Of a DNA stretch of 64,000 nt, positions 10,176 to 57,941 are shown piece after piece. The stretch is from Hypomesus transpacificus (taxonomy: Eukaryota; Chordata; Actinopteri; Osmeriformes; Osmeridae), in the NCBI RefSeq assembly GCF_021917145.1, contig NC_061082.1, forward strand, positions 12,126,237 to 12,190,236. Reading direction: 5' to 3'. A model generated the notes under the pieces. That model was not told where the DNA came from, made no database searches, and saw only the letters and a list, made by a program, of their open reading frames with translations. Every line of letters starts with the position of its first letter. Position 1 is the stretch's first letter. The position numbers and the translations under genes are program-made.

Positions 10176-10700
10176 ATGATAATAATCAATGACCAACTTA
10201 TCCTGTGGATGGACTTCCTTACCAACAAATCACAGAGAGTGCTGGTCAGCACCACCTTCTCTGCCACACTTTTCCTGGCTTCCCAAAGGGCTGGCTCTTC
10301 ACTCCTGCTCTTCATCCTCTACACTGATGACTGCCTGTCCAGCCAATCAAATGATCTCTGCTTTCAGGCCCCCTCCCAACACCCCAGCACAGCTCTTCAC
10401 GAGTTTGTGGAGTGGTGAGACAACTCCTGCCGGGAACTGACTGTGGACAAAACCAAGGAGATGGGAGTAGCCTTCTCCAACAAGCAGAGGGAACTGGCTG
10501 TGGACAAAACCAAGGAGATGGGAGTAGCCTTCTCCAACAAGCAGAGGGAACTGGCTGTGGACAAAACCAAGGAGATGGGAGTAGCCTTCTCCAACAAGCA
10601 GAGGGAACTGGCTGTGGACAAAACCAAGGAGATGGGAGTAGCCTTCTCCAACAAGCAGAGGGAACTGGCTGTGGCAGTCATCACCACACGCTGACTGTAA
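10176..10700 (+). pseudogene. LINE reverse-transcriptase relic containing a 57-bp tandem array
   Basis: The translated pieces WMDFLTNKSQRVLVSTTF, LFILYTDDC and CRELTVDKTKEMGVAF are in the order seen in fish non-LTR reverse transcriptases. Frames are broken (for example a TGA in EW*DNSC). The VDKTKEM segment was amplified four times. It lies in the tail-to-tail interval between gsk3b and nr1i2. No intact endonuclease or polymerase domain remains. Confidence 0.75.
10434..10674. repeat. 57-bp tandem repeat, four copies, derived from reverse-transcriptase coding sequence
   Basis: Units start at 10434, 10491, 10548 and 10605, with a partial fifth. They are almost identical, and the period is a multiple of 3, so one frame stays open as 19-residue repeats. 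There are no spacers, so this is not a CRISPR array. Confidence 0.95.
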
Positions 10701-49102: not shown

Positions 49103-52100
49103 ATGTCGTTTGTCGTGGACTCAGTGATCATGTTCACCTCTCAGGTAGCTAGCTACACAGCTAGTCACTTAGGTCTCAACACACTTGTACATGTTTATTA
49201 TTTGGAAATAAGTTAGCATCTTAAGGAGACGTGCGTGATTTAGGGTGCTGTAAGAAAAAAAAGGCTATTTAAAAGATTTTGCTCGTATACTGTAGCTAGA
49301 GCCAGCTAGCCAATAACTGATTGTCCTCTCTTGTTGTTGACAGGTGTTGTTCTTTGGCTTTGGGTGGCTTTTCTTCATGCGACAGCTGTTCAAGGATTAT
49401 GAGGTGCGGGTTAGCAAAACTAATTAAATTCCTGTAGCTAAGTCTTTGTTGTAGCACTAAGTGTTTTATATGGATAGATCTGCATGATCCGCCTAATCAC
49501 TTCCTGCCCTTTTGCGGATCTTGTTTTGATCCCAGGTGCGCCAGTATGTTGTCCAAGTTGTCTTCTCGATCACATTCGCTTTCTCCTGCACAATGTTCGA
49601 GCTCATCATCTTTGAAATACTGGGTGCCTTGTGCAGTAGGTAAGAAGTGGCTTCTTCTTGATTAACGTCTTCATTCACACTGACTTTATGTTACCCTCAG
49701 TGAAGTGTGTCTGCTGATAATGCAGAATATGGCATTGCATTGTGCCCAATGACTACAGTACACAATGCTCAACCAATGCAAAATGTATCCTCTTTATGCT
49801 GTTACTGACCATTTCTGTAACCCCCAGTTCCAGGTATTTCCACTGGAAGTTGAATTTATATGTAATCCTCCTTGTGCTGATCTTCGTAGTGCCTTTTTAC
49901 ATTGGCTACTTTGTCGTCAGCAACATACGCCTGTGTGAGTGGACTTGTTACTTACTTAATACTTATTAAGACTAAATCAGTTCCTTTTAATTATAATTAG
50001 CCACTTATAACAAACTCGCCAGGCTATTGAATTATGACAGCCCATCTAGCCTTCTACAAATTAAACTTGATTACTAGCCTGTGTTTTATACATTTAAGTT
50101 GTTGATCTAGATACATGGCTTTGAATACTGCACATAGTACCATAATATAGTACTTTCATGTGCTTTTGAATTCAGATGGGAGTTGTACATACTCTATTGT
50201 TAACTTTTTGGTCTATTCTCTTTTCATAACTTGACTTTGTTGTGAATGTTGCAGTGCAGAGACAGAAGCTGCTTTTTGCTTGTGTGGTCTGGTTCACCTT
50301 CATGTACTTCTTCTGGAAGTTGGGGGATCCTTTCCCCATCCTCAGCCCCAAACATGGTGAGTGGAGTGACACCAATGCATCTGTTCTTCTCCAGCCTCTT
50401 CCTTGTAACCTCAGCTGTCTGAACCACAGGAACGTGGCAAATTAAATTAGTAAGCAGACTTCTGGGTTGTAAAAATGTGGATGGCTTCCTGTTATTGCTG
50501 ACTATTATATCAACAACCACAGAAAAGGCAAGATGCTGCATCACAGACATGTGCAGAACTACATGAATGCCTTTTTAAATCCTGGACTTTTTCTGTCGGG
50601 CTACATTGTTTTCCTCCAGGCATCCTGTCCATCGAGCAGCTGATTAGTCGTGTCGGAGTCATTGGGGTCACCCTCATGGCACTGCTGTCTGGCTTTGGTG
50701 CCGTCAACTGCCCTTACACCTACATGTCCTACTTCCTCAGGTGAACCCCCCTCAGAACTACAATTCCCACAATGCTCATACAAGTCCTTCCTCCAAGTGA
50801 CACCACAAATTATTGCTACACTACCATGCCTCACTTTAAAGCTTAGTTTTACATGCTAAAATCTACTACATAGGTCTGTCCCATAAATAATTACAATAAA
50901 TGATATGACAATGACAATATAAAAGCATAATAAAGCAAGCACACCCTTTCAAAGTGCAATGAACCAAACGAACACACAACAGACATCAACAAACAAAATA
51001 GACAACCAAAATTCTATCTCTGTGAAGACAACAGGCAATATGGAGGTCTACAAAACCACATACATCGTACAATAAGCCGATAATGTAATATTGTGACAAG
51101 TACACTATTCCCTTTGGGGAGCCCTATCTACACTACATGAGACCCTGCTTGCACTGATGTATACAGTCTAGAGGGTGAAGCCATAAGCATGTTCCAGATT
51201 GTCAGTTGTGGTAAGATGTAGTGATGTCTGGACTGTGCTCCCCCTGAAGGAATGTGACCGACAGTGACATTCTGGCGCTGGAGAGGAGACTGCTGCAGAC
51301 TATGGACATGATTGTCAGCAAAAAGAAACGGTGAGACACTGGAGAAACGGCCTGAGATAGAGTACTCTTTTATTATGTGTGTGTGTGTGTATGCTCAAGT
51401 GTGCGTGAAAAATAAAGAATAATAATGTTTTTTTTGTGTATAGCATTGCCATGACACGGAGGCAGATGTACCAGCGAGGGGAGGACCAGAACAAACAGAC
51501 AGGATTCTGGGGCATGATCAAGAGTGTCACCTCGTCACCATCAGGCAGTGAGAGTATCCTTTACACGTGTGAGATGTATCGTGCGTGAGTGTATCGCCTG
51601 TGAGTGTATTGCCTGTGAGTGTATCGCCTGTGAGTGTATCGCCTGTGAGTGTATCGCCTGTGAGTGTATCGCCTGTGAGTGTATTGCCTGTGAGTGTATC
51701 GCCTGTGAGTGTATCGCCTGTGAGTGTATCGCCTGTGAGTGTATCGCCTGTGAGTGTATCATGTGTGGGTGTATCGCCTGTGAGTGTATCGCCCGTGAGT
51801 GTATCGCCCGTGAGTGTATCGCCTGTGAGTGTATCGCCTGTGAGTGTATCGCCTGTGAGTGTATCGCCTGTGAGTGTATCGCCTGTGAGTGTATCGCCTG
51901 TGAGTGTATCGCCTGTGAGTGTATCGCCTGTGAGTGTATCGCCTGTGAGTGTATCGCCCGTGAGTGTATCATGTGTGGGTGTATCGTGTATGTGTTCCTT
52001 GACCTTCCAGACTTGTCTCTGATCCAGCAGGAGGTAGATGCTCTGGAGGAGCTGAGTAGACAGCTCTTCCTAGAGACAGTGGACCTGCAGTCCACCAAGG

Positions 52101-53683
52101 TAACACAAACACACACACACACACACACACACACTACAGGTATAGAATTAGATGCCTCCCATCAGGAGCCCATGTTTGAGCTGTCTTTCTCCATCTCTCC
52201 TCCTTTACAGGAGCGTATAGAATACTCCAAGACCTTCCAGGGAAAGTACTTTAACTTCCTGGGATACTTCTTTTCCATCTACTGCGTTTGGAAGATATTC
52301 ATGGTGAGACTGGCACCACATGTAGGCAAAGTGTCTGTGGTACAGAGTCTGTAGACATCAAGACATTCACTCAGGTCTGACAGGATTACTAGCTACGTCT
52401 GTACTGCCTACTGAACCTACTTTCATACTTTCGTCCATCGTGGAACATGGAAACAGTCCAGTTCAAATCTATAGTGTTTAAATGTATGTATAGTATCAGA
52501 TTTATTGACCCCAATCAGAACCACCTCAGGGTTTGTCTAGACAGTCACAGTGCCCACTCTCTGTCCCTCACAGGCCACCATCAACATTGTGTTTGACCGC
52601 GTGGGGAAGACGGATCCTGTGACCAGAGGAATCGAGATCACGGTCAACTACCTGGGCATCCAGTTTGATGTGAGCTCACACACTCATAGCCGTGCAGTGA
52701 GGATGTTATGCTCTGGTTTAATGCGTGCACATGTGTGACAACCGGCGAGTGTTATAAAAAGGGAATCCTTATCAGGGTATCGAAGTCTCTGCAGTAAAAC
52801 CTCACCCAATCAGTGTTCAATCTCCTGACATGGTTAATGATTTGATAGACCTCTTACATCTCAGACATTCAGCTCTCTCTTAAATTGTTTATTTTGAATC
52901 TTTTATGAGCCTAAGTACGGTAATGCTATCCCTTGTTGTTTTTGTGTGTCTCTGTCTCTGTCTCTTGTTTTTGTGTGTTTTGTTAACTCTGTATGCAAAC
53001 TCCTCTTATCTACTTAAGGTAAAGTTTTGGTCCCAGCATATCTCCTTCATTCTTGTTGGCATCATCATCGTCACTTCCATCAGAGGCCTCCTCATCACCC
53101 TCACCAAGGTACCACATGCCCTCGTAGCTCTGCTTGCTTCCTACCCACGTGTCACTTCCTTCCTAGTTTACAGTGCTTGGTCAGTGTACATTGTAGGAAA
53201 ATACTAAAAATACTGTCTTCACCGTGGCTAAGATGTGCCCTCCAAGTACTTAGCAGAGCTCTCTTTTTTCCTCTTTCTATAGTTCTTCTATGCCATATCC
53301 AGCAGCAAGTCCTCCAATGTCATAGTGTTGGTCCTGGCCCAGATCATGGTGAGAATGCATGTGCTCTACGCTCACATTTATTGAACGACACGCATGAATG
53401 CAGCAGGTGAAAAGCAGAGCAGGTTTGTTGTTGTGATTAATCCTCCCCGTTGTTCCCACCTTCTTCTATGTGATAGGGGATGTACTTTGTGTCGTCTGTG
53501 CTCCTCATGCGTATGAGCATGCCCCTGGAGTACCGCTCCATCGTCACGGAGGTCCTGGGAGAGCTCCAGTTCAACTTCTACCACCGCTGGTTCGACGTCA
53601 TCTTCCTTGTCAGTGCCCTCTCGAGCATCCTCTTCCTCTACCTGGCCCACAAGCAGGCCCCCGAGAAGCACATGACCCTCTGA
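49103..53683 (+). CDS. gpr89: Golgi pH regulator GPR89
   Basis: Multi-pass Golgi membrane protein needed for luminal acidification (family knowledge). Coding exons: 49103-49144, 49344-49403, 49536-49639, 49828-49934, 50255-50356, 50620-50740, 51250-51330, 51444-51553, 52011-52099, 52211-52303, 52574-52669, 53019-53108, 53283-53348, 53477-53683. The sum is 455 aa, the same as human GPR89. Starts [20 protein letters not shown]. The central cytoplasmic loop holds [19 protein letters not shown], followed by [20 protein letters not shown] and [19 protein letters not shown]. Ends [15 protein letters not shown]. Hydrophobic membrane segments flank the loop on both sides. Intron 8 is U12-type and carries a minisatellite. 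AATAAA at 54188-54193. No frame damage. One copy is present; human has two recent copies. Confidence 0.97.
51554..52010 (+). other. U12-type (minor spliceosome) intron of gpr89
   Basis: The 5' splice site GTATCCTTT (51554-51562) matches the minor-class consensus exactly. TTCCTTGAC (51995-52003) matches the U12 branch-site consensus TTCCTTRAY just before the AG at 52009-52010. The branch A lies 8 nt from the intron end, which is on the short side for this class. Confidence 0.85.
51575..51992. repeat. 15-bp minisatellite, about 26 copies, in gpr89 intron 8
   Basis: The consensus unit TGTGAGTGTATCGCC repeats with an exact 15-bp period. Variant units include ATT for ATC, CGTGAG, and two ATGTGTGGG units. 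The multiple-of-3 period keeps several frames open (Cys-Glu-Cys-Ile-Ala type), but these are not genes. Confidence 0.97.
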
Positions 53684-54767: not shown

Positions 54768-57700
54768 TCAGAGTCTCTCATCAATGCTGTCATCGGAGGA
54801 GGATGATGACACTGACACAGTCTGAGAAAGGGGAAAGTAAGAGCACCGTGGTCAAAGCGGCAACTTGTAAACGGCACTGTAAACAAGCTCTACAAACATT
54901 AGAGAGGCATCAGAAGAATCTCTGGCGCATCTCCCTCTCACCCTTTCACGTGTCTGCACCGGCGGAGTGTCAGGTCGAGCCGCCTTCGTCTCCTCCTCTT
55001 CTCGGACCTTCTGGGTGTCGGGGCTGGGGGAGGGAGGAGTAGCAGGCGCGGCTGGAGACGGTGAGGAGACCGGGGGGGGCGTGGAGGCCGGAGCAGGGGG
55101 CTGGGAAGAGATGGCCAGGTCCCGGGCTTTCAGCTGGTCGTAGGTTTTCTTGTCAGCCACCAGGAGCTCAAGGACGCTGCCACTCGTCCTGATCAGTTTC
55201 ACCACCTCCTCGTGGTCGCTCCTCTCCACGTTCACGCCGTTGACCTCGATCACCATGTCTTCATCCTCTAGACCCGCCCTATCGGCTGTTCCGCCAGGCA
55301 CCACCTGACACACAGCAACCAATGAGCTAGGGAAAGTACATGCCTCCTTCATTACTGCCTTGTATCTTACAGCAGGACTGATAGATTGATTATTCACTTT
55401 CCCACACGAGTATGCTAGTATCTACTGTGTCTGTTGCTGTTATGAGTAACCTGAGAAAGTTGGGTTGGGTCTCATTCATCACTTCTCACATTGCATCTCT
55501 GTCTTTGTCTCTGTCTCTGTCTCTCTCCTCTGTGTGTGTGTGTCCCAAGTCTGTCATACCTCTTTTATGTACTGTCCACCGACTCCCTGGATCCCATTGA
55601 GGTGGAAACCGTATCCAGCTGAGGTCTTCTCCATCCTGCACAGTTTAGGCTTCACCTCCGCCTTCTCTACCACTGCTGGGATCACAACGGCAGGGGCAGG
55701 GGAAGGTGCTCTGGCTGGGGTGGGGATGGGCATAGTGAGTGCGTCTGGGTAGCTGGGTGGTAGGAGGGACTCCCTCGACTCTTCCCAGAAGAGGAGAGGG
55801 GACAGGCCCCCCTGTGGAGAACGGTGTCATATCAGTCCCGGATGTGCACAAACATCCAACTTGCTAGCATGCTGAGAATGTATTTCGCAGTTAACTATGA
55901 CTTACACCAATTGTATTTCAGTCAGCTCACTCACCAGCTTGTACATTCTGTCCGTTTCAGCATCTACCACTAGGAGGCAGCTCTTGTTTCCGCATTTCTT
56001 AATCATCTCCACCACCTGCTCATGGCTGCAACTGTCCACTTGTTGTCCCTCCACAGCAACCAGCCTGTCCATCTCTTTAAGTCCAGCCCTCTCTGCTGGA
56101 CTTTCTTTATCTATGGCCTTGATGTAATGGCCTGAATAACAAACAGGGGACATGAAACAATATGGTTTTCTATCTGTTGTTGAAATATTGACATAATACA
56201 CACATGCACTCTCACACACACATTCATACACACCTTTCATTTTTGGCTCCACTGTAAGGAAGTATCCGTAGCCCTCAGGTCCTTTGGTCAAGTCAGCAAT
56301 ACGAGGTTTCAGAGGGAGGTGCTTGATAGTGGCTAGTCCTGCCCCTATCGCAATGCGTTTGTTCTTGTAGTACCTTTTCATCAATCAACAAATCAAGCAG
56401 ATCAATCCATTTCACCTGTTGTATGAAGATAACAAATAAGCAAGCTGTTACTGTACCTGTCAGTGTCTTCGTCTACCAATAGGAACAGAATGCTGCTGCC
56501 GGCTGTCTTGATCTTCTTCACCATGGCTTCATGAGTGGCGCTCTCTAAGTTTTCCCCATTGATCTCCACAATACGGTCTCTGACCATGACTCCCGCCTTC
56601 TCGGCCACGCCCCCTGGTGTGACGTCTGTCATAAAAATGCCTGGCTCAGCTAGAAGCAGAGAGGGAGATGAAGTAGAATGGTAGAGGTAAGGCTCCAGAC
56701 AGACTCAGCATCTCAAATGGCATACTATACCTTATATAGTATATCTGTCAAAGATCTAGTACATTCCCAATGCCAGAAAATGCCAGGATGACACACTACA
56801 TCTGGTTACATGCCACAGTATGCAAGCCAGGCTTTTCTGGTTTCTCAATGGTACTTTCGATGGTACTCAATGGTACTTTCAATGGGACTCAATGGTACTC
56901 TCACTGGTAGACCGTTACAAATCTGTCTGCACTAGTTTAAAGCACAATAATAATACCCAAACAGATCACATTTCATGGATACTGCCTGCATCAATACACA
57001 CCAAGTAAGCTGAGTTGTAAAATCCACTAAAACGAAAAGGTTCAAATATGGGGTTTGAGACGTAAGTTCTTCATTGACGTTTTCATGCCCGTACATGTTG
57101 GAACTAAGGCAGAAATAGCATTGGCATAGACAATGGGTTTAGTCCCTGCTTGATCGAGTGATCTGATTTGATTGTGTGCAATCTCTTATCTGCCATGCTC
57201 AGTCCAACTTCAGAGATAACTGGAAAGATGTCTCGGTATCTGTGATCATGTGATTTGTGACCTCTTGTTTTCAGGGAACTATAAAGTCAGCCCCCATCCT
57301 CTCTCCTCCCTGTCTCCTTTTCTCCCCTCCCCCTTACTTTTGGCTGAGAGCAGAGAGAAGCCGTAGCCCACGGAGGTCTTCACCAGGTAGCAGAGTTTGG
57401 GCTTGGGTGTCTGCCCTGCCACCCCGTTCATGGCAGGCTGGCTCTGGTTCTGGTTCTGAGCGGGTCGGGGTTGAGGGTCTGACAGGTCCACCCCATCTGC
57501 CTTAGCCTTCTGATAGGAGTCGGCGTCTAGAACATGGAAAGTGACTGACGTTCCACTCTCTTTCACCATGTCCACCACCTGGCCCCCCAAAACACACACA
57601 CACACACAAACATGGAAGCCAGATTTGGTTAGGACAGAGCGTGGAGGCTGTAATGGAAAAAAGCAAAGGACTACAAGGGTTACATTTCCACATGAGACTA

Positions 57701-57941
57701 GACCTTATCAGGACCCCTCCCTGGCGATAATCACCTGGGAATGTGTCATCGTGTCCACATAGGTTCCATTGACCCGGAGGACGCGGTCTCCGTCTTTTAG
57801 CCCCGACAGCTCAGCGGGCCCACCCATCTCCAGGCTCCGGATCAGGTGGCCATCCTCGCCTTGCTCCACCCTCAAGAAGAAGCCGAAGCTTTGTCCTGGA
57901 GGCTTGGTGAGAGCGATAACCTTGGGCTTGTACCCAGCCAT
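54768..57941 (-). CDS. pdzk1: PDZ domain-containing scaffold PDZK1 (NHERF3)
   Basis: Cytoplasmic scaffold that anchors apical transporters and scavenger receptor SR-B1 by their C-termini (family knowledge). Coding exons, 5' to 3': 57941-57735, 57578-57338, 56649-56457, 56373-56234, 56131-55935, 55811-55560, 55304-54942, 54821-54768; phases fit, 548 aa. Four PDZ domains with carboxylate-binding loops: PDZ1 about 9-88 (QSFGFFLRV), PDZ2 about 129-213 (VGYGFSLLS), PDZ3 about 236-322 (EGYGYFLTV), PDZ4 about 380-460 (AGYGFHLNG). Linkers are Gln/Asn-rich between PDZ1 and PDZ2 and Pro/Ala-rich before and after PDZ4. The tail [13 protein letters not shown] is acidic and Ser-rich, of casein-kinase-2 type. 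Convergent with gpr89, as these genes are neighbours in human 1q21. Confidence 0.93.

Follow-up and report, generated by a model that had tools for sequence, protein, structure and literature searches.

Intron 8 of a fish gpr89 raises the question of how an intron bearing the signals of the minor spliceosome came to consist largely of a short tandem repeat, and of whether that repeat, most units of which contain a major-class donor motif, matters to the gene. We addressed this in a window of 64,000 nucleotides (C23:12126237-12190236), the whole stretch of DNA that was analysed, with genome searches covering the 437-Mb assembly. The coding model of the gene comprises 14 exons (49103-53683) and 13 GT-AG introns, with an open reading frame of 1368 nt. 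Translation of the joined exons gives an intact protein of 455 residues with Pfam matches to GPHR_N (1.6e-28) and ABA_GPCR (3.3e-42), which we take to be GPR89 from its fit to the vertebrate protein (Golgi pH regulator). The first-pass annotation had assigned positions 51554-52010 to a gpr89 intron, and in the 14-exon, Pfam-supported model they are exactly intron 8 (457 nt, phase 1; the remaining introns measure 111-509 nt). All six protein matches in the genome-wide search fall on the gene's own locus, so gpr89 appears to be single copy, and no second copy that might serve as an internal ortholog was found in the genome. On the minus strand at 54852-57704, several open frames look PDZ-like by eye, suggesting a pdzk1-like neighbour of gpr89. 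In the literature covered, GPR89 was not found alongside the minor spliceosome or U12, and the sole match for GPR89A with intron retention concerned adhesion GPCR transcripts.

Minor-class introns follow the consensus RTATCCTTT at the donor and TTCCTTRAY at the branch site. Both signals of intron 8 had been called textbook at first pass, with U12 scoring proposed as the check. Scored in this way each signal matches at all nine positions (Table 1), above the other 12 gpr89 introns, whose donors match at 2-5 of 9 positions and whose closest branch-like sites reach 5-7 of 9. The donor consensus agrees with the motifs given in PMC10853781, where validated GT-AG U12 introns are described as having an upstream exon end without AG and as favouring A as the first base after the intron. 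Both rules fit here, since exon 8 ends in GA rather than AG and the first base of exon 9 is A. The same genome contains a U11 snRNA gene (C4:4403924-4404061, 118.7 bits). These data confirm that intron 8 carries U12-type signals, alone among the 13 introns of gpr89, and from these signals we infer that it is removed by the minor spliceosome.

The description as textbook holds for the two motifs but not for their placement. Only 8 nt separate the branch A from the 3' splice site, against an optimum of 11-13 nt for U12-type introns in PMC3584512. Within 51995-52010 this spacing is short for a U12-type intron, and splicing of intron 8 may for this reason be slow or in part alternative. The intron thus resembles other U12-type GT-AG introns in its donor, branch site, exon-end bases and first 3' exon base, and differs from them in its branch spacing and in having a body that is 92% tandem repeat.

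Table 1. Positions of the splice signals and repeat features at intron 8 of gpr89, in window coordinates.
Feature	Position	Strand	Remark
Exon 8	51444-51553	+	Ends GGC AGT GAG A, phase 1
U2-donor-like GTGAGA, last 6 nt of exon 8	51548-51553	+	Score 4.3 on the U2 matrix
U12-type 5' splice site GTATCCTTT	51554-51562	+	9/9 to RTATCCTTT
Edge unit of 16 nt, TGTGAGATGTATCGTG	51568-51583	+	GTGAGA and GTATC in common with the junction
27 fifteen-mers with consensus TGTGAGTGTATCGCC	51584-51988	+	18 identical, 25 with GTGAGT
Putative duplicated block, first copy	51584-51778	+	Self-identity at a distance of 14 units (210 nt)
Putative duplicated block, second copy	51794-51988	+	Self-identity peak at 14 units
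U12-type branch site TTCCTTGAC	51995-52003	+	9/9 to TTCCTTRAY; branch A at 52002
3' splice site AG	52009-52010	+	Exon 9 begins with A
Exon 9	52011-52099	+	14-exon gene model

Tandem Repeats Finder placed the array at 51568-51986, with a period of 15, 27.9 copies and 93% matches. Counting unit by unit gave the 16-nt edge unit and 27 fifteen-mers, so that an earlier estimate of about 26 copies was slightly low. The fifteen-mers occur in seven forms, of which the consensus is by far the commonest (18 units), and carry GTGAGT in all but two cases, where the motif is GTGGGT. Allowing three mismatches or fewer, the unit had 29 matches in the window where 1.46 would be expected, and 26 of these matches lie inside the array. 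A minisatellite is defined by many head-to-tail copies of a unit of about 10-100 bp, and this array, at 15 bp by 27.9 copies, is one.

When the 27 units were compared with one another, shifts of 1-13 units gave an identity of 92-94%, a shift of 14 gave 96.9% and a shift of 15 gave 95.6%. Because self-identity peaks at a shift of 14, we propose that a block of 14 units was duplicated within the array. The most diverged units sit at both ends, and one similar pair lies in the interior (51749-51778), which the duplication of the 14-unit block would explain.

Searches of the genome with five units found the array at the gpr89 locus only, in a search that skips common words. Tandem arrays as such are common in the genome as sampled: 244 kb contained 72 non-overlapping arrays (period 7-100, at least 2.5 copies), 12 of them with at least 10 copies, the gpr89 array being counted in both figures. 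Six of the other 11 sampled minisatellites with at least 10 copies fall within one 10-kb stretch (L012, C2:1000001-1010000). Elsewhere in the window, 10432-10674 holds 4.3 copies of a 57-bp unit at 99% identity, one frame of which reads ELAVDKTKEMGVAFSNKQR per unit; the frame follows a FILYTDDC stretch, with a stop between them, and this stretch looks to us like a fragment of a LINE reverse transcriptase.

The array occupies 419 of the 457 nt of intron 8 (92%), leaving 38 nt without it. Across species, the lengths of minor and major introns go together according to PMC10639083. We scanned the genome for U12-like introns of exact consensus (GTATCCTT...TTCCTTRAC...AG) in three ranges of total length, using the backward pattern as a control; such a scan takes in only sequences without any deviation from GTATCCTT or TTCCTTRAC. 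There were no matches of 32-71 nt genome-wide, one of 63-101 nt (98 nt) and seven more of 93-131 nt (96-123 nt), and the backward pattern gave none in any range. At least one open frame crosses the joined flanks in six of the eight matches and none does in the other two (L031 and L032); some of the eight are chance matches, and an open frame in the others can arise by luck. The shortest with an open joining frame is a 98-nt U12-type match at C14:13109949-13110046 on the minus strand (L028), whose flanking exons read as a proteasome alpha subunit. No exact-consensus match in the genome is below 96 nt, although shorter U12 introns of other sequence may exist. Given that the array-free 38 nt are shorter than all eight exact-consensus matches, the array seems to supply the body of intron 8.

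In unit length, copy number, homogeneous interior, diverged end units and block duplication, the gpr89 array is like ordinary intronic minisatellites; what sets it apart is that it fills nearly a whole minor intron. In the literature covered, the papers in which minisatellites and the U12-type occur together concerned growth-hormone introns. The anatomy is real and is composed of two known kinds of element, a minor intron and an intronic minisatellite. Our preferred reading, to which we give a probability of roughly 0.78, is that intron 8 belongs to the minor class of GT-AG introns, that a 15-bp minisatellite has come to occupy its body, and that the array is tolerated filler.

Where the array came from is less clear. 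The first-pass annotation had proposed that it grew from the exon-intron junction, on the strength of a likeness of junction to unit at about 10 of 15 positions. That figure is correct on recomputation, and in a better register, starting at 51544 (GGCAGTGAGAGTATC against GCCTGTGAGTGTATC), the agreement rises to 12 of 15, a level met by 2.8e-4 of 161,683 genomic 15-mers. Sites as unit-like as the junction occur at 17 positions in the window (11 separate places), and the junction is alone among them in lying on the plus strand of gpr89, the array itself set aside. The upstream 50-nt flank also aligns to the array better than expected (P = 0.017 against 29,879 genomic windows; P = 0.002 against 5,000 mononucleotide shuffles), and both GTGAGA and GTATC are common to junction and edge unit (P = 0.004 of 40,000). 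All of this favours a duplication of GGCAGTGAGAGTATC, with every unit a decayed copy of a composite U2-like and U12 donor. The registers and flanks were, however, picked after the fact, and the junction match is separated from the edge unit by non-repeat sequence, 6 nt long in the earlier register and 9 nt in the best one. The units, moreover, lack the CCTT that defines a U12 donor. Scored against the junction, the two nearest of the 28 units reach 9.5, a further 22 stand at 9.0, two at 8.5 and two at 7.0, and there is therefore little gradient toward the junction. The 3' flank shows no resemblance to the array (P = 0.93, or P = 0.66 with the start two bases earlier).

The flanks of other arrays provide a comparison. 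Among 139 flanks of the 71 other arrays in the sampled genome (three at sequence ends having been dropped from the control, which counts the gpr89 array among its 72), 22 reached P <= 0.02. Flank resemblance is thus common around arrays in the sample, partly from simple sequence, as some arrays in the control resemble simple repeats and tend to have simple flanks as well. So the likeness of junction to unit stands (12 of 15, flank P 0.017), but an origin from the junction is not established by it when 22 of 139 control flanks do equally well, and we regard such an origin as possible but doubtful. We lean slightly towards the alternative that the array arose from TG-rich sequence just downstream of the donor, the GTGAG and GTATC shared with the junction being coincidental. 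Both edges of the array are TG-rich, intron 7 holds a short TG run and intron 9 an AC run, and the common resemblance of other arrays to their flanks is of a piece with this. About 0.016 chance matches at 12 of 15 would be expected within 30 nt on either side, which is not negligible after the fact, though the nominal P values for the junction likeness (2.8e-4, 0.017, 0.002 and 0.004) count against coincidence.

The known systems closest to this arrangement also differ from it. In the human CBS gene a 31-bp VNTR lies at an intron presumably of the U2 type, whereas gpr89 intron 8 is U12-type. The VNTR is numbered c.1444_1467+7(16_21) in PMC2630376 and is placed at exon 13-intron 13 in PMC1395315. 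It is like the gpr89 array in being a tandem repeat at a donor junction whose units carry junction sequence, or in gpr89 junction-like sequence, but it spans the junction (24 nt of exon and 7 nt of intron by its numbering), while the gpr89 array is wholly intronic and its junction origin doubtful. It is the nearest precedent for the junction-seeding idea. The nearest precedent involving the minor spliceosome is the USSE, described in PMC3584512 as a U11 snRNP-binding splicing enhancer of tandem U12 donors. Both the USSE and the gpr89 array are donor-related tandem repeats tied to the minor spliceosome, yet the USSE holds true U12-type donors and the gpr89 units read GTATCGCCT, which is U2-like and without CCTT.

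The units themselves match RTATCCTTT at 5-7 of 9 positions, and with CCTT missing their sequence rules them out as U12 donors or as a USSE. The energy of the U11 duplex alone would not separate units from donor, because the main unit pairs with the U11 5' end at -6.1 kcal/mol and the real donor at -5.2; the pairing of the main unit is a short GCC-centred helix in a register other than that of the donor.

We then considered the units as major-class donors, scored on a human U2 matrix. The claim that the array holds decoy U2 donors stands as to strength, with a correction in number: intron 8 contains 25 copies of GTGAGT rather than about 26. The unit (CCT/GTGAGT) scores a fair 6.5, within the range of 4.3-9.9 spanned by the 12 real U2 donors of gpr89, and the U12 donor of intron 8 scores -0.9. 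Sites scoring at least as high as the unit number 21 in intron 8, against 0.9 expected per 457 nt. The duplex of a decoy with U1 is predicted at -7.4 kcal/mol (-4.4 to -10.3 for the 12 real donors), and the real donor of intron 4 (TGT/GTGAGT) is identical to the decoy in its six intron bases. By these scores the array units are plausible U2 donors, matching the weaker real donors of gpr89 in strength. The part of the junction that resembles the GTGAGT of the units is the GTGAGA at the end of exon 8. This motif (51548-51553) directly abuts the U12 donor, and splicing from it would take out two codons without shifting the frame.

If the decoys were functional, U1 snRNP would bind the array and divert or slow splicing, and gpr89 output would depend on array length. 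The matrix score and U1 duplex within real-donor ranges favour this, as does the actual use of TGT/GTGAGT by intron 4. Along the array the coding frame meets TGA repeatedly, with the first in-frame stop at 51586, and all 25 decoys shift the reading frame; intron retention or decoy use would therefore truncate or shift the protein. Weighing against a functional role, the exon side of the decoys is CT and not AG, and the GUGA of the units is predicted to be paired (unpaired probability 0.05-0.08), though the next GU is free (0.92 and 0.88). We consider this reading unlikely. The fuller account, in which a composite U2-like and U12 junction was copied into the minor intron that it borders and then multiplied about 28-fold, leaving some 25 decoy major-class donors, with splicing and gpr89 output dependent on array length, appears quite improbable.

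Folding predictions might suggest yet another role for the array. The predicted fold of intron 8 is one rod that closes right beside the donor and branch site, leaving both mostly free at its base, and the intron folds at z = -1.96 relative to 100 dinucleotide shuffles. Only 0.4% of 2,000 shuffled edges form an edge-to-edge duplex at least as good as the real one. These values would favour an array that folds so as to join donor and branch site and hide the decoys, and that has been kept for doing so. Set against this, of 200 arrays assembled from units whose mononucleotides had been shuffled, 84.5% equalled or exceeded a perfect array of the real unit in predicted stability. Since most shuffled-unit arrays do so, a rod is what tandem repetition gives; on this ground we discarded the RNA rod as a selected feature, and a model in which it was selected seems to us very improbable.

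Taken together, these results suggest how a minor-class intron with a minisatellite body formed and how it is spliced. Slippage or unequal exchange would have lengthened the array, in one instance by duplicating a block of 14 units, with selection presumably keeping the splice signals at both ends of the intron. Between them the array would be tolerated filler that also gives the intron the length it needs. Splicing very probably proceeds through joint recognition of donor and branch site by U11/U12, with the internal GTGAGT decoys mostly bypassed. Messages that retain the intron or use a decoy would contain a stop or be shifted in frame, and errors would therefore lower gpr89 mRNA rather than yield a useful new protein. 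We infer neutrality of the array and nonsense-mediated decay of mis-spliced messages, as we do minor-spliceosome use and block duplication as the cause of the 14-unit repeat. The repeat is probably harmless filler, but 25 U2 decoys of fair strength in such proximity to the donor might have some effect. If the decoys act, the locus would offer a natural experiment on how the minor spliceosome passes over fair major-class donors beside its own site; if they are silent, it would show that little of a minor intron other than its ends must be kept.
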